Below are positions 1-58,800 of a stretch of DNA of 64,000 bases, piece by piece. The translations under genes and the position numbers were made by a program. Under the pieces are notes generated by a model. The model saw nothing but the letters and a program-made list of their open reading frames with translations, did no database searches and had not been told where the DNA came from. Within the stretch, counting starts at the first letter, position 1. Each line of letters starts with the position of its first letter. This DNA comes from Tachypleus tridentatus (taxonomy: Eukaryota; Arthropoda; Merostomata; Xiphosura; Limulidae): NCBI RefSeq assembly GCF_004210375.1, contig NC_134825.1, positions 8,556,001-8,620,000 on the forward strand, read 5' to 3'.

Positions 1-936
1 TAAAGAACTTGGTTTTCAGGCACTGATAGCATTAGTGACGAAACCACTAATTTCATCAAATCACGAGGGCTCAATCACCGCCAGTTTCTAAGTCTTCTTG
101 AAGAAATTGATTCAGACTATGGTGACCTTGTGTATCACTGTGAAGTACGCTGGCTGAGTCGAGGGAAGATGCTCAGAAGATTCTGGGAGTTGGTTGATGA
201 GGCTATAGAATTCCTCAGAAGCAAGAACAAAGACACAGAAGTGATTTCCATGACTGATCCAGCATGGTAAGCTGATTTGACCTTTCTGGTCGACATGACA
301 CAACACTTGAATGATCTTAATTTGTAGTTGCAAGGCAAAAATCAGCTTGTCTGTCAGCTTGCAAATCACGTCTCAGCTTTCAGGACAAAGTTGCAGTTGT
401 TCCGGCAGCAAGCAGCATCAGGCAACTTTGTGCACTTCCCCACTTTACAGTCACAGCTACAAAAGAATCAGGACATTGACACATAAGTTTATTTTGGGAA
501 GCTAGATACCTTGATTCAATCCTTTAACTCACGGTTTCATGACTTTAACCAATGCAGATTGTTGATGAAACAATTTGCTGATCCGTTCAGTGTGTCAGTG
601 GATGACTTGTCAGCAGAATATCAGCTCAAACTTACTGAACTCCAGGCATCTGATGAACTGCATGCTATTTACCGAGAAAACAGTTTGCTTGACTTCTACA
701 AAACGTTGCCTGATGCATTTGCTAATCTGAAAGAGAACGCACTTGTCTACACCAGCATGTTTGGCAGCACGTACTACTGTGAACAGGCTTTCTCGCATAT
801 GAAACTGAACAAAAACAAAACTCGCAATCAGCTGACTGATGATCATATGGAAGCAGTCTTGCGTCTTTCAACGTCAAATATCAAGTCAGACATTTATAAG
901 CTCGTAGATGACATGCAGCACCATCCATCGCACTGA
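1..936 (+). pseudogene. hAT transposase relic, GTF2IRD2-like, C-terminal part
   Basis: The plus strand reads as the C-terminal half of a domesticated-type hAT transposase of the GTF2IRD2 group. Recognisable pieces are HCEVRWLSRGKMLRR near 136-182, FLVDMTQHLNDLN near 284-324, and a 141-residue open stretch at 511-936. That stretch carries the hAT C-terminal dimerisation signature (LVYTSMFGSTYYCEQAFSHM) and ends at a TGA. The frame is broken: TAA follows DPAW near 268, TAG follows DLNL near 325, and another TAA lies near 484, so no intact protein can be made. The N-terminus lies left of the window. The family call is from recall of motif order and is fairly secure; the closest relative is not known. 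Confidence 0.75.
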
Positions 937-2129: not shown

Positions 2130-5100
2130 TCAATGTGACGCTTGTGCCTGCTTCCGAGAGCAAATCAAATTGAAGCGAGGCTCTAACGTAGACAAACAAG
2201 TTCGCATTTCATCATCGACTGTAAGAAGCCTCTCTCTCTTTCTGGCTTTAATTTCAGTCAATACTGAAAATCCAATTTCGCCAAACCACGACGATACAAA
2301 TGAAAGCAGAACTTCAACTGCTTTGCTTTGAATTTTTAATAGAGATACAAAACTCATCCAAGCTCTTTTCGGGAAACAATGACTGATTAAATTTGTCGTT
2401 TCCTAAATCAATGAGTAGTTCTTTCTCCTCACTTGTCTCGTTGTTTCCGAATGGATAGGTCACCCAGTTATATTCATCGACAGCAAGGGAAGTAATATTT
2501 TAGTGCGGACTGTAGGTCACTTAATGTGTTCAAAATTTGAGGGACAGTTTTCTTCTTTGACGGACATTCGCTAACAGGAGGAAAACAAGCATGGATTCCT
2601 TTCATCGAAGGCCTTCAGTTTGGACGTTGCAGTAACAATGTTTTCAGATGGTCCTTGGAGACTTAACTTCAGATAATTCTATTTTGTCAAACAAGTCGGA
2701 GAGAAATTGAACCTTCAGTCACCAGATCTCATCATGAAAAGAAAAATTCAAAACCTGCTTCCTCAATCTCCAAGAAAGAAGTTACTTCAGTTTTATGTTG
2801 GACAAGACGCTTTAACACCTGTCCTTTCGAAAGCCACCGAACTTCAGTGTGATACAGCAGCTTTTTGTAGTCTGAATTTATCGCCTCACAGAGAAGAGAG
2901 AAAAGTTTAGATTGAAGTGGCCGAGACTTGATGAAATTCACCACTTGAATAACTTGATTCATAACAGACTGCAAATTTTTCGGCAAAGATTTGGAGGCGA
3001 GCGCCTCTCTGTGAATCATGCAGTGAACAATTCTAATGTTTGGATTTTGTTGGCGCACCAGGTGACGTATCCCTTCTTTTTTTCCTTACATTAAGAACAG
3101 CCATCGGTACAAACGCTGACACAGTTATTCCTTACATTAAAGAACAGCCATCGGTACAAACGCTGACACAGTTATTCCTTACATTAAAGAACAGCCATCG
3201 GTACAAACGCTAACACAGTTATTCCTTACATTGAAGAACAGCCATCGGTACAAACGCTGACACAGTTATTTCTTACATTAAAGAACAGACATCGATACAA
3301 ACACTGACACGGTTATTTCTTACATTAAAGAACAGACATCGATACAAACACTGACACGGTTATTCCTTACATTAAAGGACAAACATCGGTACAAACACTG
3401 ACACAGTTATTCCTTACATTGAAGGACAAACATCGGTACAAACACTGACACAGTTATTCCTTACATTAAAGGACAAACATCGGTACAAACACTGATACAG
3501 TTATTCCTTACATTGAAGGACAAACATCGGTACAAACACTGACACAGTTATTCCTTACATTGAAGGACAAACATCGGTACAAACACTGACACAGTTATTC
3601 CTTACATTAAAGGACAAACATCGTTACAAACACTGACACAGTTATTCCTTACATTGAAGGACAAACATCGGTACAAACACTGACACAGTTATTCCTTACA
3701 TTGAAGGACAAACATCGGTACAAACACTGACACAGTTATTCTTTACATTAAAGGACAAACATCGGTACAAACACTGACACAGTTATTCCTTACATTAAGG
3801 ACAAACATCGGTACAAACACTGACACAGTTATTCCTTACATTAAAGAACAGACATCGGTACAAACACTGACACAGTTATTCCTTACATTGAAGGACAACC
3901 ATCGGTACAAACACTGACACAGTCATTCCTTACATTAAAGAACAGACATCGGTACAAACACTGACACGGTTATTCCTTACATTAAAGGACAAACATCTGT
4001 ACTAACACTGATACAGTTATTCCTTACATTAAAGGACAAACATCGGTACAAACACTGACACAGTTATTCCTTACATTGAAGGACAAACATCGGTACAAAC
4101 ACTGACACAGTTATTCCTTACATTAAAGGACAAACATCGGTACAAACACTGACACAGTTATTCTTTACATTAAGGACAAACATCGGTACAAACACTGACA
4201 CAGTTATTCCTTACATTGAAGGACAAACATCGGTACAAACACTGACACAGTTATTCGTTACATTGAAGGACAAACATCGGTACAAACACTGACACAGTTA
4301 TTCCTTACATTAAAGGACAAACATCGGTACAAACACTGACACAGTTATTCCTTACATTGAAGGACAAACATCGGTACAAACACTGACACAGTTATTCCTT
4401 ACATTGAAGGACAAACATCGGTACAAACACTGACACAGTTATTCCTTACATTAAGGACAAACATCGGTACAAACACTGACACAGTTATTCCTTACATTAA
4501 AGGACAAACATCGGTACAAACACTGACACAGTTATTCCTTACATTGAAGGACAAACATCGGTACAAACACTGACACAGTTATTCCTTACATTGAAGGACA
4601 AACATCAGTACAAACACTGACACAGTTATTCCTTACATTGAAGAACAGCCATCGGTACAAACACTGACACAGTTATTTCTTACATTAAAGGACAAACATC
4701 TGTACTAACACTGATACAGTTATTCCTTACATTAAAGGACAAACATCGGTACAAACACTGACACAGTTATTCTTTACATTAAAGGACAAACATCGGTACA
4801 AACACTGACACAGTTATTCCTTACATTGAAGGACAAACATCGGTACAAACACTGACACAGTTATTCCTTACATTAAAGGACAAACATCGGTACAAACACT
4901 GACACAGTTATTCCAATTGAAGAGCAAAATGTTTTCATTCACCAACTCGAAAATTTCTTTGCCTTTCGCTGTACTTTTAAATCTTTGCAAAATAAATATT
5001 CGTTTACGATTTTTCCATCTTTTATGAATTGAACAGATTCATCAACTTGAAGAGACCATAGCAGAGACAATTCATCTTCAGGTGCTTCGAATTATTCGCA

Positions 5101-5521
5101 ATCTTATCCTTCAAATCCGACAACTAGTCTACAATTCTGCGCGAAATTGTGTCATTGGACAGTGAAACTTGCTTACCCTTTTTGGCAGCATCTGTTCCAA
5201 GCATAATTTCAATGATGATTGCTTCGCTGGTGCAATGACTGATTCGGCCTCCGTATGCTCTTTCTTGCATTTTGCCAACAATTGAACAACCTTATAACTT
5301 ACAATCAATCCTTTTTCGGGCAGCTTCATGTAGTTCACAAGCTTCCTTGATTGTTCATGTTGTTGAGCCGTGAGATTCTCGAAGTATTCTTTTGGTTTAT
5401 CCTTCACAGCTAAATGTTTTGTTTCCAAGTGCCTCTTTAGTTTGCTTGGAACAAGCGCCTCATTCGATAAAGCTGAATTGCAGAGTAGACAGAATGGTAA
5501 TTGAGAATGTTCCGATTCCAA
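2130..5521 (-). pseudogene. ZBED5-like hAT transposase, broken
   Basis: Reading the minus strand from 5521, an N-terminal BED-type zinc finger (FCLLCNSALSNEALVPSKLK, then HLETKH) leads into EYFENLT. A frame break near 5150 follows, then NNCVSVCTDG near 4905, which is the TDG motif of this transposase group. After the tandem array comes NPNIRIVHCMIHREALASK (about 3040-2985) and LLYHTEVRWLSKGQVLKR. The C-terminal end (VDDEMRTCLSTLEPRFNLI) stops at 2130. Several frameshifts, stops and the 47-bp array make it non-functional. It differs in sequence from the GTF2IRD2-like relic at 1-936, so these are two separate hAT insertions. Confidence 0.85.
3085..4912 (-). repeat. 47-bp minisatellite born from transposase coding sequence
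   Basis: About 39 head-to-tail units of 47 bp (plus strand: CACAGTTATTCCTTACATTA, then roughly AAGGACAAACATCGGTACAA, then ACACTGA). Read on the minus strand each unit spells NCVSVCTDVCPLM followed by a stop. That is the same peptide as the single-copy transposase sequence at the right edge. Units at the left edge (about 3095-3260) keep GGCTGT, giving CTDGCS, the ancestral motif, whereas most internal units share a GTTTGT change. The period is not a multiple of three, so expansion destroyed the reading frame. Confidence 0.9.
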
Positions 5522-6035
5522 AGCGATAAAAACGTATTCGATGTATTCGTTTTTGTACTTTCGTTTGATTCCTTGCTTTTAATTCAACACATTCTCCTTT
5601 ACTTAAATATTTTTCCATGGATAAATGATAAAGCTAATTCATACATGATAAGCACGAAGTTCTGCAGTCGATATAAAATTCCTACCTACAGCGTAGTAGC
5701 TGTAGCTTACCCCAGAATGAAAACGTGTTCCAGAAAGCAGTTTGATTGTTTGATGCATTATTTATGACGTACGAAGCGCTTGTTGCACCACAATTAAACT
5801 AACAGTCGAACCGTTGCAGTCGAGAATGAAATTTAAGTATGAACTTCACAGTGCTCGAGTTCAATGAAGACCATCGAATGTTTTGGAAGGTTTCAGAGTG
5901 TCTCTATAGGAGCTTTTATTAACTGATGTGTTCGACTTGCTTGTAAAATCCCAAGAAAGTTGAATGTGTTTTAAAAACATCGCGGCACACCTGCCAATCT
6001 CTCGCGGCACACAGGTTGAAATCACTGTTCTAAAT

Positions 6036-21300: not shown

Positions 21301-24300
21301 GGTGTGTTTGACGTAATGATGTACTTGTGTTTAAGGTAATGATATAGGTGTGTTTAACGTAATGATGTACTTGTGTTTAAAGTAATGATATAGCTGTGTT
21401 TGACGTAATGATGTACTTGTGTTTAAGGTAATGATATAGCTGTGTTTGACGTAATGATGTACTTGTGTTTAAGGTAATGATATAGCTGTGTTTAACGTAA
21501 TGATGTACTTGTGTTAAGGTAATGATATAGCTGTGTTTGACGTAATGATGTACTTGTGTTTAAAGTAATGATATAGCTGTGTTTGACGTAATGATGTACT
21601 TGTGTTTATGGTAATTATCGTGGTATTGTTCAATATAAGGTTTAATTTCTATATACTGAGTTTCCACTGACGTTCTTTATTTTATATTTATGACAAAATT
21701 GCTCTCTTACCGTTTCAGATTTAGCTTAATTATTATTTATATTCGTCAGACTGAATTGTTGTCCATTCTTTTAATTGTTGCTTGATATTTCCAGGCGGCA
21801 TATGAACCAGATAAAGATGACCTTCATGAAAACGTCGTGTCATTAATTGAGACCATACAATATGAGACCCAGCGGATTATAACCTCGGACCCAGAGTTTA
21901 AACATGAACTACAAGATTCTGGAGCTACCTTATTGGTAGAATCCTTTAATGATACACACTTTGCACTTGTCTGTCAAGAACGTGGCTTTGTTGTAGATAT
22001 CGACACAGATATATGTCGTAAGTCTTTTCCTGCTGTTCTATCCTTAACATGTCCCTTCTGGTCTAAAGGCTGTTTTGCCTAAAGTGTTTTCACATATTTG
22101 ATTTTTTAAAGTACTGGTATGTTGAACCGTAAACTGCACATTATAAGACACATCGGTGAAGGGCAAAGTGTAATACCCTTGTGTGCCCTCTTTGTGGCAC
22201 AGCGGTATGTCTGCCGACTCATGCCGCTAGAAACCGGGTTTCGATACCCGTGGTGGGTAGAGTACAGATAGCCCATTGTGTAGCTTTGTGTTTATTTCTA
22301 GCAAAAAAACAAAACTTTGTTCAGGTCCTCAATTTAGAAGTGATTACTCCACACATCTGTTACATTACAACAAAACTCAAACCTACTCGAAGGCCGTCAC
22401 TAATTTAAAGTGGTAGACAATCAGCTATTTAACACCATCCACTGCTAACTACTGTTGAACTATAACGAATAACTGGATTGACCGTCACTATATGACGCCA
22501 CCACAGGTGGAAGGACGAGCAAGTTTGTTGTCGGGACACCTCGAAAATATACAGTTTGATCAATAACTGTTTGTTTTATCTTTCTTTTAACTATCAAAGA
22601 CGATTTTAAATTTCTTTCACGACTAAAATTAGTTTTAGTACACCATATTGTAAACATTTCAACACGTTCATGTGTACTCTCAATCTTCTGTTGTCTTTGT
22701 ATAAATTTGATCAAGTAAAGACTGTTCCAGAAATTCCGTTTTAACTGAAATAGATCAGTTTCTGTCAGTTGAAACCCAAACTGCAGGTGATCATTGTGAG
22801 ATTTTGGATACTTCGACAATTCAGCAAACAAAGTAAACTTTGAAATTTACTTTTCAGGGGTGCCGACGGGAAATACGAAGAGGATGGACAATGCAAACAA
22901 TGTCCAGCAAACCACTATCAAGACCAGACTGGACAAATTCAATGTGAATCGTGTCCTCGTGGAACAATATCACACGCTGGTTCCCGAACTCGAGCAGACT
23001 GCAAAGGTAAACATTGTACCACCTCCTAATAATATCAAACATTGGTTCTTGATCTTGAACACAGTACAAAGGTAAACACTGTACCATATCCTAATAATAT
23101 CAAACACTGGTTCTTGATCTTGAACACAGTACAAAGGTAAACATTGTACCACATCCTAATAATATCAAACACTGGTTCTTGATCTTGAACACAGTACAAA
23201 GGTAAATACTGTACCACATCCTAATAATATCAAACACTGGTTCTTGATCTTCAACACAGTACAAAGGTAAACACTGTACCACATCTAATAATATCAAACA
23301 CTGGTTCTTGATCTTCAACACAGTACAAAGGTAAACACTGTACCATATCCTAATAATATCAAACACTGGTTCTTGATCTTGAACACAGTACAAAGGTAAA
23401 CACTGTACCACATCCTAATAATATCAAACACTGGTTCTTGATCTTCAACACAGTACAAAGGTAAACATTGTACTATATCCTAATAATATCAAACACTGGT
23501 TCTTGATCTTCAACACAGTACAAAGGTAAACACTGTACCATATCCTAATAATATCAAACACTGGTTCTTGATCTTGAACACAGTACAAAGGTAAACATTG
23601 TACCACATCCTAATAATATCAAACACTGGTTCTTGATCTTGAACACAGTACAAAGGTAAACACTGTACCACATCCTAATAATATCAAACACTGGTTCTTG
23701 ATCTTCAACACAGTACAAAGGTAAACACTGTACCATATCCTAATAATATCAAACACTGGTTCTTGATCTTGAACACAGTACAAAGGTAAACACTGTACCA
23801 CATCCTAATAATATCAAACACTGGTTCTTGATCTTCAACACAGTACAAAGGTAAACATTGTACTATATCCTAATAATATCAAACACTGGTTCTTGATCTT
23901 GAACACAGTACAAAGGTAAACACTGTACCACATCCTAATAATATCAAACACTGGTTCTTGATCTTCAACACAGTACAAAGGTAAACACTGTACCATATCC
24001 TAATAATATCAAACACTGGTTCTTGATCTTGAACACAGTACAAAGGTAAACATTGTACCACATCCTAATAATATCAAACACTGGTTCTTGATCTTGAACA
24101 CAGTACAAAGGTAAACACTGTACCACATCCTAATAATATCAAACACTGGTTCTTGATCTTCAACACAGTACAAAGGTAAACACTGTACCACATCCTAATA
24201 ATATCAAACACTGGTTCTTGATCTTCAACACAGTACAAAGGTAAACATTGTACTATATCCTAATAATATCAAACACTGGTTCTTGATCTTCAACACAGTA

Positions 24301-27300
24301 CAAAGGTAAACACTGTACCATATCCTAATAATATCAAACACTGGTTCTTGATCTTGAACACAGTACAAAGGTAAACACTGTACCACATCCTTATTATATC
24401 AAACACTGGTTCTTGATCTTCAACACAGTACAAAGGTAAACACTGTACCATATCCTAATAATATCAAACACTGGTTCTTGATCTTGAACACAGTACAAAG
24501 GTAAACATTGTACCACATCCTAATAATATCAAACACTGGTTCTTGATCTTGAACACAGTACAAAGGTAAACACTGTACCACATCCTAATAATATCAAACA
24601 CTGGTTCTTGATCTTCAACACAGTACAAAGGTAAACACTGTACCACATCCTTATTATATCAAACACTGGTTCTTGATCTTCAACACAGTACAAAGGTAAA
24701 CACTGTACCATATCCTAATAATATCAAACACTGGTTCTTGATCTTCAACACAGTACAAAGGTAAACACTGTACCATATCCTAATAATATCAAACACTGGT
24801 TCTTGATCTTGAACACAGTACAAAGGTAAACACTGTACCACATCCTAATAATATCAAACACTGGTTCTTGATCTTCAACACAGTACAAAGGTAAACACTG
24901 TACCACATCCTAATAATATCAAACACTGGTTCTTGATCTTCAACACAGTACAAGGTAAACATTGTACTATATCCTAATAATATCAAACACTGGTTCTTGA
25001 TCTTGAACACAGTACAAAGGTAAACACTGTACCACATCCTAATAATATCAAACACTGGTTCTTGATCTTCAACACAGTACAAAGGTAAACATTGTACTAT
25101 ATCCTAATAATATCAAACACTGGTTCTTGATCTTCAACACAGTACAAAGGTAAACACTGTACCATATCCTAATAATATCAAACACTGGTTCTTGATCTTG
25201 AACACAGTACAAAGGTAAACACTGTACCATATCCTAATAATATCAAACACTGGTTCTTGATCTTGAACACAGTACAAAGGTAAACATTGTACCACATCCT
25301 AATAATATCAAACACTGGTTCTTGATCTTGAACACAGTACAAAGGTAAACACTGTACCACATCCTAATAATATCAAACACTGGTTCTTGATCTTCAACAC
25401 AGTACAAAGGTAAACACTGTACCACATCCTTATTATATCAAACACTGGTTCTTGATCTTCAACACAGTACAAAGGTAAACACTGTACCATATCCTAATAA
25501 TATCAAACACTGGTTCTTGATCTTCAACACAGTACAAAGGTAAACACTGTACCATATCCTAATAATATCAAACACTGGTTCTTGATCTTGAACACAGTAC
25601 AAAGGTAAACACTGTACCACATCCTAATAATATCAAACACTGATTCTTGATCTTCAACACAGTACAAAGGTAAACACTGTACCACATCCTAATAATATCA
25701 AACACTGGTTCTTGATCTTCAACACAGTACAAAGGTAAACATTGTACTATATCCTAATAATATCAAACACTGGTTCTTGATCTTCAACACAGTACAAAGG
25801 TAAACACTGTACCATATCCTAATAATATCAAACACTGGTTCTTGATCTTGAACACAGTACAAAGGTAAACACTGTACCATATCCTAATAATATCAAACAC
25901 TGGTTCTTGATCTTGAACACAGTACAAAGGTAAACATTGTACCACATCCTAATAATATCAAACACTGGTTCTTGATCTTGAACACAGTACAAAGGTAAAC
26001 ACTGTACCACATCCTAATAATATCAAACACTGGTTCTTGATCTTCAACACAGTACAAAGGTAAACACTGTACCACATCCTTATTATATCAAACACTGGTT
26101 CTTGATCTTCAACACAGTACAAAGGTAAACACTGTACCATATCCTAATAATATCAAACACTGGTTCTTGATCTTCAACACAGTACAAAGGTAAACACTGT
26201 ACCATATCCTAATAATATCAAACACTGGTTCTTGATCTTCAACACAGTACAAAGGTAAACACTGTACCACATCCTAATAATATCAAACATTATTATCATG
26301 CTTTCTTGCAAACATGCACATTATTTTCCTATTTAAATAAGATAATCATTACATTATTGAAAAGTGTAACCAACTCGTTATAAGATGGGGCATATTCTGC
26401 CCACACCTGTGGGTAAATCAACACTAAAGTTAACCTATATTAGATATTTTTATCAACAGAGTTACCTTGTATGATACACATGCTTTAAGTTCGTATAGGA
26501 ATTGTATATCCAAAATCGACCAGTACTTTATTCAGTAAAAACAAATAGAAAGGTTTCTAAACATTTTTACTCTTATAATTCGATAACATTCAGCAAGCTA
26601 TGACCAACATAAGTCTCAATTAATGATATAAATAAGTTATAGAAAGAAGTAAAAGAACCCTATTTTCCTTTCTTAACTAAGCTATATTTCTTTAAGTTCA
26701 TTAAATCTATTTAAATTTTTCGGAAATAAGTTAAATTCGTAAAACATTCAGCGAAAGGAGTGTAGTATATTGAATATTAAGAAAAAATTACTTATGTATG
26801 TTAATTATCTTATTTTATTCTTGTAATTAAAGCGCTATGTTTTAAATTTTTCTACCTGGTACTGAATATTAAGCCACTTGTTTGACTGTTGTACATAAAG
26901 CACTGTACCTGATTTTAAATGTTTCTACCTAGTACTGAATACTAAACCACTTAGTTGAGTATTGTTCTTAAAATACAATGTTCTTTTAACTCGTTCTACA
27001 CTCTTCCATACATTAATAGGCTTAATTGTTTGTAATTCAAGCACGGTGTTTGTTTTCAGCTCTTTCTGCACAGTTTGTACATTAACATGTTGACTGCCAA
27101 GTATTTCAGCTGCTACAATACAACTCTAATGCTTCTTCATTTTGTAACTTTTTTCGTGACGCCATTTTGGATCAAAAGTGAAACAATATGTAAGTAGGTC
27201 AAATGTATGTATGGTGCTGACATCTAGCGTTGAAGTTAAGTATTATTGAGAACGTATTAACTCGTCCGTGGCACTGTGTTACCGATCGGCTTGGACGAGT

Positions 27301-30300
27301 TATCACGTCTTTGGCACTGAACAGGTTAAACTATTTAACAGATGTAGTTAAAACTTGGTGTCACTTTCTATCCAGTTCTTTAAACTGGATTTAAACTATA
27401 CAATTGTTTTAGCTAAACGACCCTTGTTATTTTTTAGCTGTTTCTGTCAAGTCTCGACTAGCTTTACCAGGAGCTGTGAGAGAGCAGGCTTATAGAGATG
27501 CCTGTAAACCTAACCCTTGTCAAAATGATGGCTTTTGTATTCGTGTTGGAAGAGACAGCTATAGGTGCCAGTGTAGACACGGCTACAAAGGTAAGGTCAA
27601 TGAGTAAGAACAATATGAAAAATATGAGTATAAAGGTAAGAACAGTGTTTGGTTATGGACTTTCAGTGAATGGGCTCATTGTGAAGTAAGTAAATTCATG
27701 TATACATGGTTGGAAAGGTAAAGCTACCTCCAGAAAGCTGTGTCACCCATAAGACACAATTATAAAATTACATACAACCGATTAGATATAGCCTAACTCA
27801 TATAGATAAGGCTAGAAAACAGGCAGCTGTACGCAATTATGGCCAGATAATACTTCCAGTCATGTACATCCAAGGCCAACCTGCGAGTCTAGTTATGTAC
27901 AACCAATGTCATTCTTCAAATCCAGTTATTTATAAACAGAAAAAGTATATCTAGATGCAAACAGGATCAGAATACAAGTCCAGCTACATGCAGTAAGGGT
28001 CCATGGGCAAATCTGGCCACATAGAGTCAGAGACAACCCACGTAAAGATAGGGCCAAAGTGTAACATACGTACAAGAAACACAATGAAAACTATATTCGT
28101 GTATACAGTTAAACCAAGCAGTTAATATGTATGTTTGTAAAGCTATAGGCTAAAGTAATGCCAGTGTCAAGCCACACTTCATAATTACCAACTAAAAGAG
28201 GAGAAAGCGTTGGAATTATGAAAATTATTAAATAATTCATACAGTTTCAAAATAAAACGAACAAATAACGGTGGCTCACATCACGTCAAATTAATGGATA
28301 GGTTAGCAAAATAAAACAAACAAGACGGTCAGTACAGAAGCAATTACAAAACAAAGTTGGTATTTAAGCACCCATGTATGGAACTTTGGACAAAATTCAT
28401 TTTATAAAAATAATGCCTTTGAGGAAAATGCTAACAATAGGCTGGAACAAGTTAAATTTTAGCGGCAGAATGCGGAGCGTAACTTAGTGGAAAGAAGGCA
28501 CAACCCACAACCCCTCACGTCCACAGTCTGACGCACTACCAATAGGTCAAGTTCTTTCAGTGTTTATTCCAAGTCCAAAACTATAAACATGAGATTATTG
28601 AAAATACTTTCAGTTAGGTAGATCCACCATTAATTTTATAACTTACATTTGATGTATTTTTTAACACTTACGTTTTGAAGAAGGTATTTCTGATTAAATA
28701 GATAATGGATTCTTATTTCAAGCAAGGTAACAGCTGACAACGTGATTAAGTTATATAATCTATGGAAGTCAGTTGTATTAAATGTTGATTACAAATATTT
28801 TATTTTTCTTTCTTATTAGCTAAAACTTATTGCTTATAATTACCATGACTGGAAATCAATATTTGATCTCATATTTGGCGATTTTATACGTAATGTTACA
28901 GTATGGTTCTCTGAGACTTGTATGCTGTATGAAAGAAACTGGATTCTTAGACATGTTTACGTTGGTTGAGTATATTATGTTAAACTACTTTGAATATGCA
29001 AATCAGAAAATCACGTGACAACCACTATTTGCGTAAAGTCGCAGCTGAACAGGATGTATCAGAACTACAATTTGTAGCAACCCTCTCTGAAGCAAAATAT
29101 TGATACACTCAGATGATACAGAAATGCTCTAATTGGAGATTCACAATGTTACTTAATATCATTCGAAAACAAAGGATCATGGATCCACCTGGAACACCCT
29201 GACCATTCAGAAATTTGCAGTAAACTGAACTTCATCTGTGGTATGCAAAACAGAGCATCTTGTAACAGGTGAGAATACAAACATACAAAGGTCAGTGGTA
29301 AAAGCCATTCACATGTGCCACGACAAAGAAATCCTAACTGTAGAAATTGTATGAACGACGTTTAATCAGAGATAAGTTGCAGCACATTGTGACAAACCCC
29401 GAAACGTACGTGTATCTTCATAACTATAACAAGACTCGTGTAACCACTGGACGAAAACACCTTCAAAGTGGTACACGGTGTGTAACGCAACTTGTTTTAT
29501 TCAATGATTTATCATCGTCACTGGATACTGCGTCTCGAACGTGGATAAAAAGTCAAAGTGATCTTAGACCAACGTTCATGATCTTTTGAAGTAAGTTTAT
29601 ACCTCACAAAAATATCGGTTTTGTACAATTAAGAGACCAACAGGATACAGGTTCACCAAGATAAGGCTTTCAATCAAACGTCTCATACTTGCAACAGCGA
29701 CAGAATAAAATAGTTGCTCGCGTTGGATTTTTCGTTACTATTGAATTCAATGCTGGAAAACTGTTGTTCTTGTACACTGGGTGAATTATGGAAACCATGC
29801 AGGTTGGAGTGGCGTGATTTAAATAATAGCTACGTTTCAGGACTATTGCCAATATATACAGTCGTCAGACAAAGCATGACCGGACGTGAAAATATAAGCT
29901 ACAAGATTGTAATGATGTTCCAAAGTCATTTTATTATAACAAACTCAGCCTCTATATAAGGATTAAGTGATGTTCCGAAGTCATTTTATTATAACAAACT
30001 CAGCCTCTACATAATAATTAAGTGATGTTCCAAAGTCATTTTATTATAACAAACTCAGCCTCTATATAATAATTAAGTGATGTTCCAAAGTCATTTTATT
30101 ATAACAAACTCAGCCTCTACATAATGATTAAGTGATGTTCCAAAGTCATTTTATTATAACAAACTCAGCCTCTACATAATAATTAAGTGATGTTCCAAAG
30201 TCATTTTATTATAACAAACTCAGCCTCTATATAATAATTAAGTGATGTTCCAAAGTCATTTTATTATAACAAACTCAGCCTCCATGTAATGATTAAGTGA

Positions 30301-36300: not shown

Positions 36301-39300
36301 CTTGTTTTGTTGTACAATAAAAACAGCAATAGTAGACCAGCTAGGTTTACAGATGTGTTGTTGTAAATAAAAACTGCAATAGTAGACCAGCTAGATCTAC
36401 AGATGTTTTGTTTTAAATAAAATCTGCAACAGTAGACCAGCTAGGTGTACAGATGCTGCTTTATTGTAAATAAAAACTGCAATAGTAAAACAGCTAGGTT
36501 TACAGATGTTTTGTTGTAAATAAAAACTGCATTAGTAGACCAGCTAGGTTTACAGATGTTTTGTTGTAAATAAAAACTTCAATAGTAGACCAGCTAGGTC
36601 TACAAATGCTGCTTTGTTGTACAAAGAAAATAGCAGTACAAAACCAGTTAGATCGATGGACGTGGGTCGTTTGTAAAGCCATCAGGTTTTTCAATGTACT
36701 ATATGTATTACGTTGTTATACTCACATCAATGAATCCATATTTACCTATACATTCTACCACAACAAGAACCCTTGTGTTGCTGCCTTTTCTATTTGCCTT
36801 TACTCATAGTTACTCATAAAGGGTAGAATTCCTAAAACTCGTATTATTCGGTGACGAGTGGTTAAACGAGTGAGATATTTAACATCATATTTGCTCAGTG
36901 TATGTAATATGTGATGCCTCATTTCGTCTTTAATCACACACAGCAAACTGATAAGATTTCTATAATTATTTTCAGCTGATCACCTAAAGGTTTTAGCTCA
37001 TGTTACCAACAAATAATGTTAGGTCATCCCTTAAGCAATGTCCGATTTGAGGTTCAAAAAATGAGAAAGGATTTCAAAGGCTTTTAATGTTATTTAATCA
37101 ATAATGTATATTCGATTATTAATAATTACTTCCTGCCAACGATTCACAAGCTTCTGAATGTCACTTGTATAAAATTATTGTGGTTTGAAGGAAAATAATG
37201 TTGGAAGAGTAGTGTTGACATCTTCATGTGTTCCAAGCTCTTTTCCATCAAAATAGTTCTACAAACTTCTGAATAGATGATAATCATATGGGACAAGGTC
37301 TGGAGATTAAGGAAGATGTGAAAGTTTTTCCCAATCTAGCTCTTCAATATTTGCATATTTCATCCTTGCTGTATGGGGCCATGCATTATTCTGGTGTAAC
37401 ACAACACCTTTACAATTGATCAAAGCAGGACTATTTTCTTTCAGTTCATCGTTCAAGTGCTCTAACTGTTGAAAAAAGAAGTCTGATGTAATCATTACAC
37501 TGAGTGGCAGCAACTAAAAGTAGATCACACCAACAATATCCCAGCAAACGCTCAACAAGACTTTCCTAAAGGGGGGGTCCATTTTGGGCTGTGCTTTAGC
37601 CAATGTACAGTCATGTGAAAAGTTAAGACACCCTATGAAAGCCTGTGTAATTTTGTAACATTTTTGGATATATAGATATTTAATCTCAATTTTAACAATA
37701 CTGAGAGATCATAGGAATATAACTAAACAATTAAAACTGAAGAAAAGACTTTTCAAGATCTTCTGTAAATGTCATGCTACAAAAATGCATATTCTAACTG
37801 AGGAAAAAGTTAGGACACCCTACCCCCTAATAGTTAGTGTTATCCCATTTGGCTCAAATAACTGCAGTGAGACGCTTCTTGTAGCCATCTACCAGTCTCT
37901 GACATTGGTCTGAAGAAAGTTAACCCCACTCCTCAATGCAGAATTCTTTCAGCTGTGAGATGTATGAGGGATTTTTTGCATGTACAGCCCATTTCAAGTC
38001 ACCCCACCTTATCTCAATGGGATTTAGATTTGGGCGTTGACTTGGCTATTCCAGGACTCTCCATTACTTAGTTTTTCAGCCAGCCCTTGGTGGATTTACT
38101 GGTATGTTTTTGGTTATTGTCGTGTTGCAGGGTCCAGTTCCGCTTCAGCTTTAATTTTCTTACAGATGGTCTCACGTGATCCTCAAGTACCCTCTGATAC
38201 ATTGTAGAATTCATGGTGGATTCTATGATTGTAAGCTGTCCAGGTCCTGCTGCAGCAAAGCAGCCCCAAACCATGACACTTCTACCTCCATGCTTCACAG
38301 TTGGTATGGGGTTCTTTTCCTGGAATGCTTATTTGGTTTATGCCAAACATGTCCTCTGTTCTGGTGTCCATATAATTTAAATCTGGACTCATTTGTCCAA
38401 AGAACATTATTCCAGAAGTCGTGGTCTTTGTATACATTCTCTCTGGCAAACTTCAGTCTGGCCTTGATGTTTCTCTTAGAGAGCGAAGGTTTCCTCCTTG
38501 CATGCCTCCCATGCAAGTTAAACTTGTGCAGTCTCTTTCTGATTGTAGAGGCATGCACTTTCACATCAGCAGTAGCCAGAGCCTGCTGTAGGTCCCGTGA
38601 TGACATGTTAGGGCATTTGGAGACCTCTTTTAGCATCTTGCGGTCTGCTCTCGGGGTGAACTTGCTTGGGTGATCAGACCTGGGCATGTTGGCAGTTGTT
38701 TTGAAAGCCCTCCACTTGTTGACTATTTTCCAGACAGTGGAATGACCGATTTCAAAATCTTTTGGAATCTTTTTAAATCCCTCACCAGACTCATAAGCTG
38801 CTACAATTTTCTTTCTGAAGGCCTCAGACAGCTCTTTTGCTCTCACCATGGTGCTAACTCTCACTTCAACAGTCAGGAGCACACCAAACTAAATGTCTGA
38901 GGTTTAAATAGGACAACCCTCATTCAAAATGCTGAGTAACGATCTTCTAATCATGTGCACCTGGTGTGATACACCATTGTGTGAGTTGAGCCATTTTAAG
39001 TGGAAATAAATGTGGGGGTGTCCTAACTTTTTCCTCAGTTAGAATATGCATTTTTGTAGAATTACATTTACAGAAGATCTTGAAAATTTTTTTCTTCAGT
39101 TTTAATTGTTTAGTTATATTCCTATAATCTCTCAGTATTGTTGAAATTGATATTAAATATCTATATATCCAAAAATGTTACAAAAATACACAGGCTTTCA
39201 TAGGGTGCCCTAACTTTTTCACATGACTGTACCTGCACTGAACCATTGTCTGCAGCGCTTAATATTTTTTAGACAGGTTAGTGACATTCACGACAGTGTA

Positions 39301-47454: not shown

Positions 47455-48410
47455 TAAGGAACCCATGTTTCCTGTTGAGACATTAGATAGAGGATTCACT
47501 CATTTACTTACCCAGAGAGAGAACAACCCCATCAACATGTTTCCTGTTGAAACTACTTCCATTAGACAGAGCCTCCAGAGGATTCACTCACTAACTTACC
47601 CAGAAAGAACAACCCCATCAAGATGCTTCCTGTTGAAACTACTTCCATTAGACAGAGCCTCCAGAGGATTCACTCATGTTCTTACCCAGAGAGAGAACAA
47701 CCACATTAACATGTTTCCTGTTGAAACTACTTCCATTAGACAGAGCCTCCAGAGGATTCACTCATTAACTTACCCAGAAAGAATAACCCCATGAACATGT
47801 TTCCTGTTGAAACTACTTCCATTAGACAGAGCCTCCAGAGGATTCACTCCAGTTCTTACCCAGAGAGAGAACAACCACATTAACATGTTTCCTGTTGAGA
47901 CTACTTCCATTAGACAGAGCCTCCAGAGGATTCACTCATTTACTTACCCAGAGAGAGAACAACCCCATCAACATGTTTCCTGTTGAAACTACTTCCATTA
48001 GACAGAGCCTCCAGAGGATTCACTCATTAACTTACCCAGAAAGAACAACCCCATGAACATGTTTCCTGTTGAAACTACTTCCATTAGACAGAGCCTCCAG
48101 AGGATTCACTCCAGTTCTTACCCAGAGAGAGAACAACCACATTAACATGTTTCCTGTTGAAACTACTTCCATTAGACAGAGCCTCCAGAGGATTCACTCC
48201 AGTTCTTACCCAGAGAGAGAACAACCACATTAACATGTTTCCTGTTGAGACTACTTCCATTAGACAGAGCCTCCAGAGGATTCACTCATTAACTTACCCA
48301 GAAAGAACAACCCCATCAACATGTTTCCTGTTGAGACTACTTCCATTAGACAGAGCCTCCAGAGGATTCACTCATTTACTTACCCAGAGAGAGAACAACC
48401 CCATCAACAG
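47455..48410. repeat. 88-bp minisatellite
   Basis: About 11 units; core CATGTTTCCTGTTGAAACTA, then CTTCCATTAGACAGAGCCTC, then CAGAGGATTCACTCATTTAC, then TTACCCAGAGAGAGAACAAC. Units of 88, 87 and 86 bp mix. The plus-strand open frames 47438-47794 and 48157-48690 are by-products. On the minus strand each unit holds CTGGGTAAGT, a consensus-grade 5' splice site. Confidence 0.88.
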
Positions 48411-51369: not shown

Positions 51370-52871
51370 TTAAGATTTCCTTGTGTGCATCTTCTCGTGT
51401 CTCTTTAGGTTACTTTTACTTACAAATTGTTTACCACATACAATACAACTGTATGGTTTTTCACCAGTGTGTACCTTTTCATGAGCATTCAAATAACTTT
51501 TACATACAAATTGTTTACCACAAACTACACAACTATAAGGCTTATCTCCAGTGTGTATCTTCTCATGATTTGTTTGACTACTTTTACTTGAAAAATCTTT
51601 GCCACAAACTACACAACTGTACGGCCTTTCCCCAGAATGTATAATCTCATGATGCTTCAAGTTACTTTTACTCACAAACTGTTTACCACATACTATACAA
51701 CTGTATGGCTTCTCACCACTGTGTATCCGCTCATGAGTCTTTAAGTTACTATTACAAACAAATTGTTTACCACATACAACACAACTGAATGGCTTTTCTC
51801 CAGTGTGCATCTTCTCATGAATATTTAAATTACTTGTACACACAAATTGTTTACCACATACTACACAGCTGTACGGCTTTTCCCCAGTATGTGTCTGCTC
51901 ATGACTTTTTAACTTACTTGTACATACAAATTGTTTACCACATACTGCACAACTGTAAGGTTTTACTCCAGTATGTATCTTTTCATGAATTGTTTGACCA
52001 GTTCTACTTGAGAATTCCTTGCCACATACAATACAAACGTAGGGCTTCTCCCCAGTATGTATTTTCTCATGAATTTTCAAGTTACTTTTGCTTAAAAATT
52101 CTTTACCACATACAACACAATGGTTAGGTTTCTCCCCAGTATGTATCCTGTTATGTTTCTTGAGGTTGTTTTTACTTACAAACTGTTTACCACACAGTAA
52201 ACAACTGTACGGCTTCTCACCGGTGTGCGTCTTCTCGTGAATTTTCACACCATTTTTACTTAACCCTTTACCGCATACCGAACAACTGTATGGCTTATCT
52301 CCAGTGTGTATATGCTTATGGTGTTTTAAGTTACTTTTATGTGCAAATCCTTTTCCACATACTGCACAACTGTAAGGTTTCTCTCCAGTGTGTATCTTTT
52401 CATGACTTCTCAGATAACTTCCACTTATAAACTTCTTACCACACACTGCACAAATGCACGGTTTCTCCCCAGTGTGTATCTTATCATGTACCTTTAAGTA
52501 ATTTTTAGTCACAAATTCTTTGCCACATACCACACAATGGTATGGTTTCTGCTCAGTGTGTATTTTCTTGTGCATTTTTAAACGACTGTAATTTAAAAAT
52601 CCTTTGCCACATACAACACAACCATATGGTTTCTCTCCAGTGTGTATCCTCTCATGACTTTTTAAGTTACTTTTATACGCAAACCTTTTGCCACATACAA
52701 CACACATGTTTGGCTTCTCCTCAGAATGCATTCTCCGGTGACGTCTTAGGAGACTTCCACTTACAAATTTCTTACCACATACTACACAAGTATGTTTTTG
52801 TTCACCAGTAAATATCCTCTGGTGTTCTTTCAGGTGGTGCTCAATAAGGACTTTTTCACGTATCTTTGCAT
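51370..52871 (-). CDS. zinc-finger exon: 17 tandem C2H2 fingers
   Basis: Minus-strand exon entered after GATTTTAG (acceptor at 52873-52872) and ending TAA at 51372-51370. About 500 residues. Fingers follow the pattern YSCVVCGKQFVCKSNLKxHE..HTGEKP. The knuckle C-x2-C and H-x3-H are kept throughout. Finger 7 (YSCSVCGKGLSKNGVKIHEK) is one residue short between the second Cys and first His and lacks the core Phe, so it may not fold. Fingers 10 and 15 have Gln instead of the core Leu. The apparent Met at 52893 lies in the intron and is not the start. The repetitive fingers are highly alike, suggesting recent finger duplication. Confidence 0.88.
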
Positions 52872-55800
52872 CTAAAATCAAAACAGACTCCATGTAATAA
52901 AGTCATCTTTATTTAATATTATCATATCCACACACAAAAATAGAAAGAACAAATTAGACTAAGCAGACCAGACTTGCCTTTCTTACTTTGGTTGTTCTAC
53001 ATACAGATATTTATATCTTCAAAACACATCTTTTAAATCTGTTTGTAGTACAAACATTTGTGAAATTTACCAACATTTTGAATGTAGGTATGTCTCAACA
53101 AAAATTCTACGAGATGAAGGAAAATCAAAGAAGCAAAGATATAAAGATATTTGTAATAGTATATTAGGTATACTACAGTAAGTAAGTAGATTCCAGTAAA
53201 CACATGAATTATCTTTGTTTTGCACATGACTATAATTTCTACATTTCTTATACACGTTACCCTACAAACTGAATTAATTACATAGGTTTCTCTAAACACA
53301 CTACATTTTGTAAGTATGTTTCTCTAAACATTCATTATGTAGTTTTACATACAACATTCATTATATTCAACTAATCAGTTATTCTCTTTTGAGACTTAAA
53401 TAGATGAAAGAGTAGTAAAAACTAGAAATACTAAATCACACATAATAATTCAGAATATACATATCTTCTCTAACTGGTTATCCATCATAAATACTACACA
53501 TATCTTCTCTAACTGGTTATCCATCATAAAAACTACACATATCTTCTCTAACTGGTTATCCATCATAAATACTACACATATCTTCTCTAACTGGTTATCC
53601 ATCATAAATACTACACATATCTTCTCTAACTGGTTATCCATCATAAATACTACACATATCTTCTCTAACTGGTTATCCATCATAAATACTACACATATCT
53701 TCTCTAACTGGTTATCAATCATAAATACTACACATACCTTCTCTAACTGGTTATCCATCATAAATACTACACATACCTTCTCTAACTGGTTATCCATCAT
53801 AAATACTATGCATACCTTCTCTAATTGGTTATCCATCATAAATACTACACATACCTTCTCTAACTGGTTATCTATCATAAATACTACACATACCTTCTCT
53901 AACTGGTTATCCATCATAAATACTACACATACCTTCTCTAACTGGTTATCCATCATAAGTACTGCACATATCTTCTCTAACTGGTTATCCATCATAAGTA
54001 CTGCACATATCTTCTCTAACTGGTTATCCATCATAAATACTACACATATCTTCTCTAACTGGTTATCCATCATAAATACTACACATATCTTCTCTAACTG
54101 GTTATCCATCATAAATACTACACATATCTTCTCTAACTGGTTATCCATCATAAATACTTTTAAAAATAACTAATTATACATTCAGTGTTTTATATAATCA
54201 GTGTTCTAATGTACCAGTTGGTTATCCATCTTAAGTTCTTTTAAAGCAACTAAGTATACATTAATGGTTTTGTTTAACCAGTGTCATAAAGGTACGAGAT
54301 GGTTATGAATCATAAGTTATTTGAAAAAAACTAAGTATACATTCAGTGTTTTGTATAAATCAGTGTTTTACTATACCAGTTGGTTATCCATAATAAATAC
54401 TGTTAAAACAACTAAGTACACATTGTTTTGGGTTACATCTAGCTTTGTATTCTTTAATAGCCTTAGACTCATTTAGTTAAAAGATACATCTTCTTTGGAA
54501 AGGTGCAGATAAAAGATATCCTTCACCATTTATGTCATAATACAGTCACCCTAGCACATAACCTTGTGATAACATTCACTGATATCTTAATGAAGGAAAC
54601 CACAGGTTAATAGATGGCATGCCATATTCCTCACATGAAGAACCAAGATCAACTACTGGAATACAGTAAAGGAAACCACAGGTTAATAGATGGCATGCCA
54701 TATTCCTCACATGAAGAACAAAGATCAACTACTGGAATACAGTAAAGGAAACCACAGGTTAATAGATGGCAGGCCATATTCCTCACATGAAGAATCAAGA
54801 TCAACTAATGGAATACAGTGAATGAGAAGCTAAAAGTAAACATTTTCCTCAACTGAAAATGTTCTTTATTATATACATTCTTGTCCATACACACTATCTA
54901 TTTCTTGCATGAGCAGGCAACTATTCTAGAACACAATATAATCATCACACAGTTACAGCTTTCTGCCAGTAAAAAAAGTAATACACTCCATGTACAGTGG
55001 ATCCCCATAAACACTGAGATTCAAATAAACCTCATTCTTAAATAAGGCAAGAGGAATGATGGAAGTTGTTTAGAGGTATATGCTGAAAATTAATTTTTGT
55101 TAGGGAAAATTTAAGCTTCCAGAAACATCCATTTTCCTCTCTACATGTAGTAGCTAGAATACCACAAAGACATGGTGGAGGTACTGGTGTAAAAAGAGAA
55201 ACCATCAGAAAATCCATGGAACATGACACCCAATGAAAGGGTCCTACTACAGGTGTAACACATATTGGGGACTGCATCCTTCTTAGGTAGGATATAATCT
55301 TTAACTGGGTGGAAGCATAAAAGGAAGAAGAGAAAAATATTTCACAGGTGTGAAATATACACGGCCAACTGGGAGTTTGCATCAAACAACTCAGACAGAC
55401 ATAAGGTGTATTGTAGCTAGTGCACTAATTGGACTTCTTGCCTCCCAAGAACATTTTGTTCCAAATGACTGTTCAAAACTGCTGGGAAATTGGCATACAA
55501 CATAATCATGGATGAGCTGCCTTACTACTCACTATGAACCTTTCCAAAAAGGTTTCACAACTCAGGAGGAATGCTCAAAATTGATCATCCCTGTGGCTTG
55601 GAGCCAGAAATGGCAAGGGTCTCTTGTCCTTCTCTTGAAGACCAGGATGAAGGGATTAACAATAGAGTGGCACCCAAACCTAATCAACACAACAATTTTT
55701 CATTGGATAAAGTGTAATGAGTTACCTTAAAACCTGTTTTGACAAGCTGGTACATGCCAGAAAGAAGTGAGCAGAGCTCAAATAGGGCCTGGAGCCACAA

Positions 55801-58800
55801 GAAGCCCCTAATCATGCATATGATTGTTCACATGGTTGGTGAATGACGCTGTTGGAGGCATGGAAAGATCTGACCACACTCCAACTGTAGTAAAGGAACA
55901 TAGTGCAGCATCATATGTCCAAGATGGAGTAGGAGACAACTTTTGAGAAATGTTATTAATAGTTTTTAAATTCTGGACCTCTTTCTCCTCCACCCATTGA
56001 GAGCAAGAATGAAAATAAGAGGGGTGGGAACCACTACAGTTAGTGCAGTAAGGTTTCAGTTTGTAGTCTTAGGTGTCGTGATCTTTACCACTACAACAAA
56101 CATGCATCAAACCACCACAACATGATGCCTTCAAATGACTGAACCCATGGCATTGGAAACATCTGAGAGTTAGAAACATATGGCCATACCTTACAGTTCA
56201 TATAACCTGTTTTGACAATGGCAGGTAGACGTGGCAACGTAAACATTGGTAGGCAGCATAAGTCCTTCTTTAAAAGTGGAGATATGTCACACTGCAGAAA
56301 CTCCTTGAATGGAGTTTCCAGCAAGGATCTCTGACAAATCTCTCTCAACAATAACTCCTCATGAGGAATTCAAAGTAGCATGGGAAGTAAAATCAATATG
56401 TACATCTCCCATGGCATTTGAATTCAAGAGGAGCTCACTGTGTTGTGGAGCAGATGTTTTCACCAAGATGTCCCCAGAACTTTGCTTTCTGACAGAATTT
56501 GGAAAGCCCCTCTAATCTCTTCTGAATAAAAAAAGGAAGGCATTTGCCCTAAGGATTTGTCAGATAAAGAATAAAGGACAAAAAGTCAAGGTACAAGATC
56601 TGAAAGTGATAGTGACTGTGTAACAGAGCCATCCATGCATGACCATTCAATAAAAGCTGTGTTTTTATTTTCTTGTTTTCAGGTAAATGTTGATCATATA
56701 TAATAAGAATAAAAAAGATTCACTGCCTACTAACCCTACCCATCATGGAGTCCTATGAGGAGATGCACCACAATGCCAATCACCAGCAACATCAGAGATT
56801 CATAAGTACTTTTTCCAATTGCCAGCATCAAACATAATGTCCACAACACCCAATGAGAATGCACAACACTGGTAATTGGTTAACCCTAGCCCAACAGGAT
56901 CGAGTTACCACACCATTGGATAGATTTTGTCTGGAATGGAAATATGATTTGTGACAAGAGTGCATATGAAGAGGAGGAAGCTGGACACTCAAAGTGTGTA
57001 TCCTCTCCATCCACCAATATAGACCATCAACTATGGTATAAAGAAGAGTAATACAAGCCTGCAGAAGGTCCTGCACAAAATTTTACTGGTCATGAAGAGC
57101 CCAATGAAGAGCTTGCACATGAGTATGGCCTAAGGGCATAAGTGTAGCCAAGGAAGGCCACATCCCCCAAAGTGACAGAACCCTGCAAGATGTAAGATAG
57201 GGAACATTAAGAACATGGTGAACTAAACTGAGATGAATGACTTGAAAATCAACTTCTAATGGACCTGATATTGAGTAGGTTGAAGGAAGGATTTCTCCAA
57301 TTTGATTAACCAGCCCACATAAGCCACATAAGCCAATCGAGAGTTATCAGGATACATAAATAAGCATTCAAAATCCACCTTTGTCATCCATAAATCTTGA
57401 GAAAAAGCCCACCTGAGGATGAAAAATGACTTCAAGGTAAAATGGGGGAGATTGAGAAATTGATTCAGGCAGGACAATTTATAACAAGTAACCAGTCTCT
57501 GGTTGTCTTGAGGGCAACAAAAAGCTCTGAATAAAAACCAGGAGCCCTGGATGAATGAACAAGTGAGAGCTGAGAAGGACTAGGATTGTAAACAGGAATA
57601 GGAGCTAACTGTGGTTCCAACTGCTACAAATAAGCTGCTAACAAAGAAGGAGTAGGATGTTGATGGAAGAATTCTATGGTCATGTGAAAAGTTAGGACAC
57701 CCTCCATATTTATTTACACTTAAAATGGCTCAACTCACACACAGGTGTATCACACCAGGTGCACACGATTAGAAGATCGTTACTCAGCATTTTGCATGAG
57801 GCTTGCCCTATTTAAACCTCAGACATTTAGTTTGGTGTGCTCCTGACTGTTGAAGTGAGAGTGAGCACCATGGTGAGAACAAAAGAGCTGTCTGAGGCCT
57901 TCAGAAAGAAAATTGTAGCAGCTTATGAGTCTGGTGAGGGATTTAAAAAGATGCCAAAAGATTTTGAAATCGATCATTCCACTGTCTGGAAAATAGTCAA
58001 CAAGTGGAGGGCTTTCAAAACAACTGCCAACATGCCCAGGTCTGATCACCCAAGCAAGTTCACCCCGAGAGCAGACCGCAAGATGCTGAAAGAGGTCTTC
58101 AAACGCCCTAACATGTCATCACGGGACCTACAGCAGGCTCTGGCTACTGCTGATGTGAAAGTGCATGCCTCTACAATCAGAAAGAGACTGCACAAGTTTA
58201 ACTTGCATGGGAGGTGTGCAAGGAGGAAACCTTCGCTCTCTAAGAGAAACATCAAGGCCAGACTGAAGTTTGCAAGAGAGAATGTAGACAAAGACCAGGA
58301 CTTCTGGAATAATGTTCTTTGGACAGATTAGTCCAAAACTGAATTATTTGGACACCAGTACAGAGGACATGTTTGGCATAAACCAAATACAGCATTCCAG
58401 GAAAAGAACCCCATACCAACTGTGAAGCATGGAGGTAGAAGTGTCATGGTTTGGGGCTGCTTTGCTGCAGCAGGACCTGGACAGCTTACAATCATAGAAT
58501 CCACCATGAATTCTACAATGTATCAGAGGGTACTTGAGGATCACGTGAGACCATCTGTAAGAAAATTAAAGCTGAAGCAGAACTGGACCCTGCAACATGA
58601 CAATAACCAAAAACATACCAGTAAATTCACCAAGGACTGGCTGAAAAACTAAGTAATGGAGAGCCCTGGAATAGCCAAGTCAAAGCCCAAATCTGAATCC
58701 CATTGAGATACGATGGGGTGACTTGAAATGGGCTGTACATGCAAAAAATCCCTCATAAATCTCACAGCTGAAAGAATTCTGCATTGAGGAGTGGGGCAAA

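Follow-up and report, generated by a model that had tools for sequence, protein, structure and literature searches.

An intronic minisatellite homologous to the end of exon 6 and its 5' splice site in the horseshoe crab Tachypleus tridentatus

The window analysed here is a 64,000 bp stretch of the T. tridentatus genome (contig NC_134825.1; C1:8556001–8620000, in an assembly searched over 2.17 Gb in 205 contigs). It contains a gene encoding Sushi, Ephrin_rec_like and EGF domains (Pfam), and in this gene the end of exon 6 and its 5' splice site (donor) are followed by a long tandem array of related units. The array (i) is homologous, in register, to the exon end and donor, (ii) descends from the exon rather than the reverse, (iii) is restricted to this locus and its near-identical copies, and (iv) differs in copy number between them. 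We consider it likely that the array is a 'mirage' minisatellite: a decayed, homogenised and copy-number-unstable duplication of an exon end with its donor, which splicing probably tolerates.

The array contains 51 AAGGTAAA sites, running from the donor of exon 6 itself (GT 23007) to GT 26255, with spacings of 65 bp in 48 cases and 64 bp in two. The periodic stretch occupies positions 22963–26289; its length equals 51 x 65 + 14 - 2 bases, that is, 51 units and a further 14 bases, minus two deletions. An earlier sequence-only reading of the window, hereafter the initial annotation, had given the same start and an end one base too far, at 26290. Tandem Repeats Finder (TRF) reports a 65 bp unit in 50.6 copies. 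The initial annotation also counted about 50 copies of AAAG/GTAAAC behind the real donor: 50 further AAGGTAAA sites do lie there, and the exact 9-mer AAGGTAAAC is common to 50 of the 51 donor sites.

Each unit spans an exon–intron boundary and carries AG/GT. Aligned in register with the donor and without any gap, the unit agrees with the final 44 exon 6 bases at 32 positions (majority consensus) or 33 positions (variant with G at position 30), and with the first 21 bases of the intron at 19. The register and the counts of 33/44 and 19/21 agree with the initial annotation, and the likeness held up when controls were run alongside it. Firstly, no 65-mer elsewhere in the window, whatever its phase or strand, scores above 37/65, against 51/65 at the exon edge. 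Secondly, when the exon 44-mer is dinucleotide-shuffled 20,000 times and the best of 65 phases is taken each time, the score never exceeds 27/44. Thirdly, with AG and GT excluded, the donor register scores 48/61, while 538 other AGGT sites score no more than 25/61.

All three CpGs of the exon end are lost from the unit, the G variant having TpG or CpA in their place, and the CpG ratio of the window is 0.53, which fits decay by methylation; the initial annotation had likewise pointed to CpG decay. Its more specific claim, that both CGA codons had become TGA, holds for the first codon (TGA in 49/49 units) and in part for the second (TGA in 22, TCA in 27). These counts come from a column alignment of 49 of the 50 intronic units, the deletion-bearing unit being left out; the alignment has 11 variable columns, one of which lies inside the donor 9-mer. 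Internal units show 96% matches (TRF), while the exon copy matches at 51/65; internal homogenisation has spared the boundary copy.

Near-identical copies of the locus lie at C1 8.58 Mb (the window), C1 9.67 Mb (inverted) and C14 4.81 Mb, and may be alleles, segmental duplicates or assembly products. Aligned pieces of the copies span roughly 9.3 kb to 34.9 kb of the window, with the final 2 kb being array. A genome search for the unit found it at no other locus, all 44 matches listed falling at the three locus copies (a lower bound, as the best candidates were scored and very common words skipped); the idea of a dispersed satellite family was rejected on this confinement. The three copies hold 51 (window), 21 (C1 9.67 Mb) and 21 (C14) AAGGTAAA sites. 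Written as unit types, the window array reads ABCDEFGHFCGFGHGFCGIHFGJCGIJFGIKGHFLCGIJFGMHFLCGIJFI and that of C14 reads ABCDGHFCGFGHGFCGGIJFI; the C1 9.67-Mb array is one unit different from that of C14. Common to the window and C14 arrays are 4 units at the left end, a further block of 12, and 5 units at the right end; the edge types A and B are each found a single time in an array. The flanks adjoining the array differ between the window and the C1 9.67-Mb copy by 1/840 and 1/1129 substitutions, plus 5 and 4 single-base indels. Because 51 and 21 units stand beside near-identical flanks, copy number must have changed fast.

The length of the window array could, alternatively, be partly an assembly product (a haplotig or mis-joined reads), the true array having about 21 units. 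Three near-identical copies occur in one assembly, and exon 6 is 149 bases long in the window, 4 fewer than the 153 in each of the two other locus copies. On the other hand, the longer array holds unit types E, K, L and M, which are absent from the 21-unit arrays, and the flanks farther 3' differ from those of the C1 9.67-Mb copy at 7/659 and 26/1548 positions, as would those of a separate haplotype or duplicate. We regard an inflated array as possible, though clearly the less probable account of the 51 units. The end of exon 6 is identical across all three copies. In the C1 9.67-Mb copy the reading frame runs unbroken through exons 5, 6 and 7; in the C14 copy, where the frame test took in exons 6 and 7 alone, it continues from one to the other.

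Arrays of this kind have been described before, contrary to the initial annotation, which knew of no such case: both lancelet mirages and a human IFI6 minisatellite are reported (PMC3087553, PMC3902484, PMC4526556). The lancelet papers describe tandem repeats over the exon–intron boundaries of Adh3, globin and troponin C genes, with something similar in PGBD5, and state that regular splicing is undisturbed by mirages with AG/GT repeats (PMC3087553, PMC3902484). Mirage units measure 10–72 (Adh3) or 150–160 bp (globins), BflGb6 haplotypes carry 6 and 3 repeat units, and the origin mechanism is termed unclear (PMC3087553). The horseshoe crab array shares with the mirages of Adh3, BflGb6, BflGb9 and TnC a copy number that varies between haplotypes or locus copies, and edge units that escape homogenisation (PMC3087553, PMC3902484). 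It differs in its host, a chelicerate, in its decayed exon-derived part, in the legibility of its likely origin words, and in scale, with 51 and 21 sites against the 6 and 3 units given for BflGb6. Recently duplicated genes in human segmental duplications, too, contain variable tandem repeats at exon–intron boundaries that are able to alter splicing (PMC2812944); their units average 30-bp in ~4 repeats, unlike the 65 bp array. A minisatellite-sized unit, a boundary span with AG/GT, length instability and homogenisation that spares the edge copy are all seen in the exon 6 array, which belongs to the described mirage kind, notable for its length, clarity and taxon. Our literature search, with most subscription papers outside it, found no exon-end array of the mirage kind reported for a chelicerate.

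What do dozens of donors mean for splicing? Depending on the donor used, exon 6 would be 149, 214, 279, 344 ... 3397 nt long. Under exon definition, only the first few donors would yield an internal exon of normal size. Since 65 is not a multiple of 3, the reading frame shifts with each unit. The initial annotation had predicted truncation from the later donors through stops in the degraded copies; the first in-frame stop that splicing at any later donor would retain, however, is not in a degraded copy but is a TAA just behind the real donor (Table 1). Use of the first donor is expected because it gives a normal-sized exon and adjoins the undegraded exon end, which sits beside that donor alone. 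From the sequence and general knowledge, the first donor is probably the one used, with exon-proximal splicing winning and the array a tolerated passenger. A decoy-hiding hairpin was considered and rejected: taken singly, neither the exon copy (z 0.94) nor the first intronic unit (z -0.42) folds better than its shuffles do. Two units together give z -2.42, with 3/200 shuffles folding equally well; the GGUA/UACC pairing over the donor occurs in the exon copy too, and we give the two-unit fold no weight.

The downstream donors might instead be put to use, with transcripts that contain the TAA at 23027 entering nonsense-mediated decay and copy number tuning expression. The shared donor 9-mer, the variation in copy number (51/21/21) and the in-frame stop immediately behind the real donor would suit such an arrangement. 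Precedents exist: the human IFI6 (6-16, G1P3) minisatellite, in an interferon-induced transcript, also offers multiple splice donors through its units, and two downstream repeat units are reportedly used, giving isoforms (PMC4526556); and in C. elegans the intronic minisatellite CeRep25B is overrepresented close to multiple alternative splicing decisions (PMC4039745). Unlike the donors used in IFI6, those downstream of exon 6 meet an in-frame TAA, which argues against coding use. Locus copies whose flanks are nearly identical have unit numbers more than twofold apart, and no constraint is apparent. In addition, the one variable column of 11 inside the 9-mer is about the share that 9/65 positions would lead one to expect without selection on decoys, although this is a weak test, and lancelet mirages are reported silent. 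Useful downstream splicing is accordingly unlikely in our estimation. Less likely again is a copy-number rheostat in which dozens of identical 5' splice sites recruit U1, some splicing leaks to them and the TAA transcripts are destroyed; if it were true, expression of the gene would vary with unit number and differ between the 21- and 51-unit copies.

The direction of descent was examined through paralogous exons. Searching the genome with the 49-residue exon 6 peptide returned 108 matches (E up to 1); ranked next after the window itself are C1:9671527 and C14:4807301 (both 96%), C12:11089137 (70%) and C9:124970170 (48%). The C12 and C9 exons terminate at the same point of the domain, with donors GTGAGT and GTAATT, and no such array lies behind either exon in the stretches examined. 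(In the C12 stretches, TRF finds other arrays farther away: 10.5 copies of a 64-bp unit upstream, and shorter ones from ~2.9 kb downstream.) There are 11 exon positions at which neither unit variant has the base of the window exon; at these, the C12 exon is exon-like at 8, unit-like at 2 and neither at 1. As an array-free paralogue keeps the exon state at 8/11 positions, most of the exon/unit differences seem to have arisen in the array, and with a Pfam domain whose exon occurs array-free on C12 and C9, the exon reads as older than the array. This backs the view of the initial annotation that the array was made from the exon end and its own 5' splice site. The reverse order, in which a pre-existing minisatellite joined the exon and the exon end is a captured unit, would equally give homology in register; we reject it as very improbable, because the exon end codes for the end of Ephrin_rec_like, occurs array-free in C12 and C9, and is favoured by the polarity of 8 to 2.

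At the left end of the array, 17/20 positions match in 22963–22982, against 1–4/10 in six blocks farther left; at the right end, 20/20 match before 26290, against 2–3/10 in five blocks beyond. Ten-base blocks within the array match at 8–10 positions. The two ends fall on similar 14-base words, AACAATATCACACG in the exon and AATAATATCAAACA in the intron, which agree at 11/14 positions and have the core AATATCA exactly in common. Of the exonic word, the first ten bases are present in the C12 exon as well. Because both ends fall on such words, the simplest reading suggests that slippage or unequal exchange between them gave the first 65-bp tandem copy. The proposed course of events would be as follows: (i) a 65-bp segment that takes in the exon 6 end together with its donor would have undergone tandem duplication by way of the two words, then 65 bp apart, microhomology being the putative origin of the first duplicate; (ii) the duplicates, lying in the intron and freed of coding constraint, would have decayed (CpG loss, C/G to T/A); (iii) ordinary minisatellite turnover may then have multiplied and homogenised the units to about 20–50 copies; and (iv) the exon copy would meanwhile have been held by selection.

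Several observations weigh against a decayed duplication that splicing tolerates. The C12 paralogue shows the unit state at 2/11 positions, and the intronic boundary word is seen only in its post-duplication state. The same 9-mer stands at 50/51 donor sites, so the core site cannot discriminate between donors. Downstream repeat donors are reportedly used in human IFI6 (PMC4526556), and CeRep25B suggests that intronic arrays need not be silent (PMC4039745). Finally, exon 6 of the window, 4 bases short, is out of frame with exon 5 (stretch 21795–23006), which may mark the window copy as a pseudogene, as a haplotig or as the result of an assembly error. The locus offers a clean natural experiment on how the splicing machinery selects a single 5' splice site when dozens have an identical core, at two array lengths. 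The exon ancestor, an array-free paralogue and the likely boundary words are all legible, and give a hint of how exon-end minisatellites arise.

Long minisatellites are common in the window. Between positions 3082 and 62465 there are eleven (basic units of 23–87 bp), together with one of 88 bp at 47489–48409, covering ~23 kb of the 64 kb, and several introns of the gene contain them. Eleven window arrays, a set that leaves out those at 47489 and 51383 as well as two short ones (54138 and 54593), were compared with the edges of 10 exons whose positions had been judged by eye: only the exon 6 array exceeds the background maximum at an exon edge, and a general rule of exon-matching arrays in this gene is rejected (1/11). 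A genome survey covered 34 hand-picked hits, 30 of the exon 6 peptide and 4 of Coagulin, and excluded all three copies of the window locus; among the 30 are many weak matches that are not proven exons, and some hits may end before their exon does. Coagulin, a family not known outside horseshoe crabs, has 19 matches in the genome; it has none in 14 control genomes, but these also lack the widespread Sushi family and so are no test of species. In the small, partly weak sample of the survey, no array (period >=15, >=2.5 copies) overlaps any of the 34 hits. Arrays lie within 60 bases of four hits (L029, L032, L034 and L035, the last two seemingly one duplicated locus); at L029, L032 and L034 they begin 6–23 nt behind an apparent donor, with no exon homology. 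The horseshoe crab genome may have a tendency to place arrays a short way behind 5' splice sites. Exon-matching arrays, at 1/11 in the window and 0/34 among the surveyed hits, look uncommon in it. That an AT-rich repeat resembles the exon end by chance gains a little from the many intronic minisatellites of the gene and from such arrays starting just behind donors without an exon match, but its probability is negligible, and the window, shuffle and AGGT controls rule it out.

Exon 6 was inferred from its domain, its frame and its paralogues; its edges were placed by eye, with the acceptor ttttcag before 22858 and the donor AAAG/GTAAAC. The features of the locus are collected in Table 1.

Table 1. 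Features of exon 6, its array and the intron that holds it (window positions)
Feature	Positions	Strand	Remarks
Exon 6	22858..23006	+	149 bases in window; codes Ephrin_rec_like (PF07699, E 4.1e-9); frame test
Edge copy of the repeat	22963..23027	+	Last 44 bases of exon 6 and first 21 of intron; 51/65 vs unit consensus, elsewhere <=37/65
Left boundary word AACAATATCACACG	22963..22976	+	In exon; start of periodicity
Real 5' splice site of exon 6, GTAAAC	23007..23012	+	Inferred from domain end, in-frame exon 7 and paralogous exon ends
In-frame TAA for any transcript using a downstream donor	23027..23029	+	Translation CK-GKHCTTS-stop; 20 bases on from the real GT
Intronic part of the minisatellite	23028..26289	+	50 units (65 bp, but 64 in two), all bearing AAGGTAAA; closes with a 14-base partial unit
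Right boundary word AATAATATCAAACA	26276..26289	+	In intron; end of periodicity
Exon 7	27438..27590	+	EGF domain (Pfam); closes the array-bearing intron; in frame with exon 6

The window also contains several other open frames. A 510-codon frame at 51370–52902 (-) reads by eye as a C2H2 zinc-finger array. Two long frames, at 38295–38888 (-) and 57831–58331 (+), resemble Tc1/mariner transposases, and those at 4–270 and 487–936 (+) and at 2732–3085 and 5129–5578 (-) resemble pieces of hAT/ZBED-type transposases.

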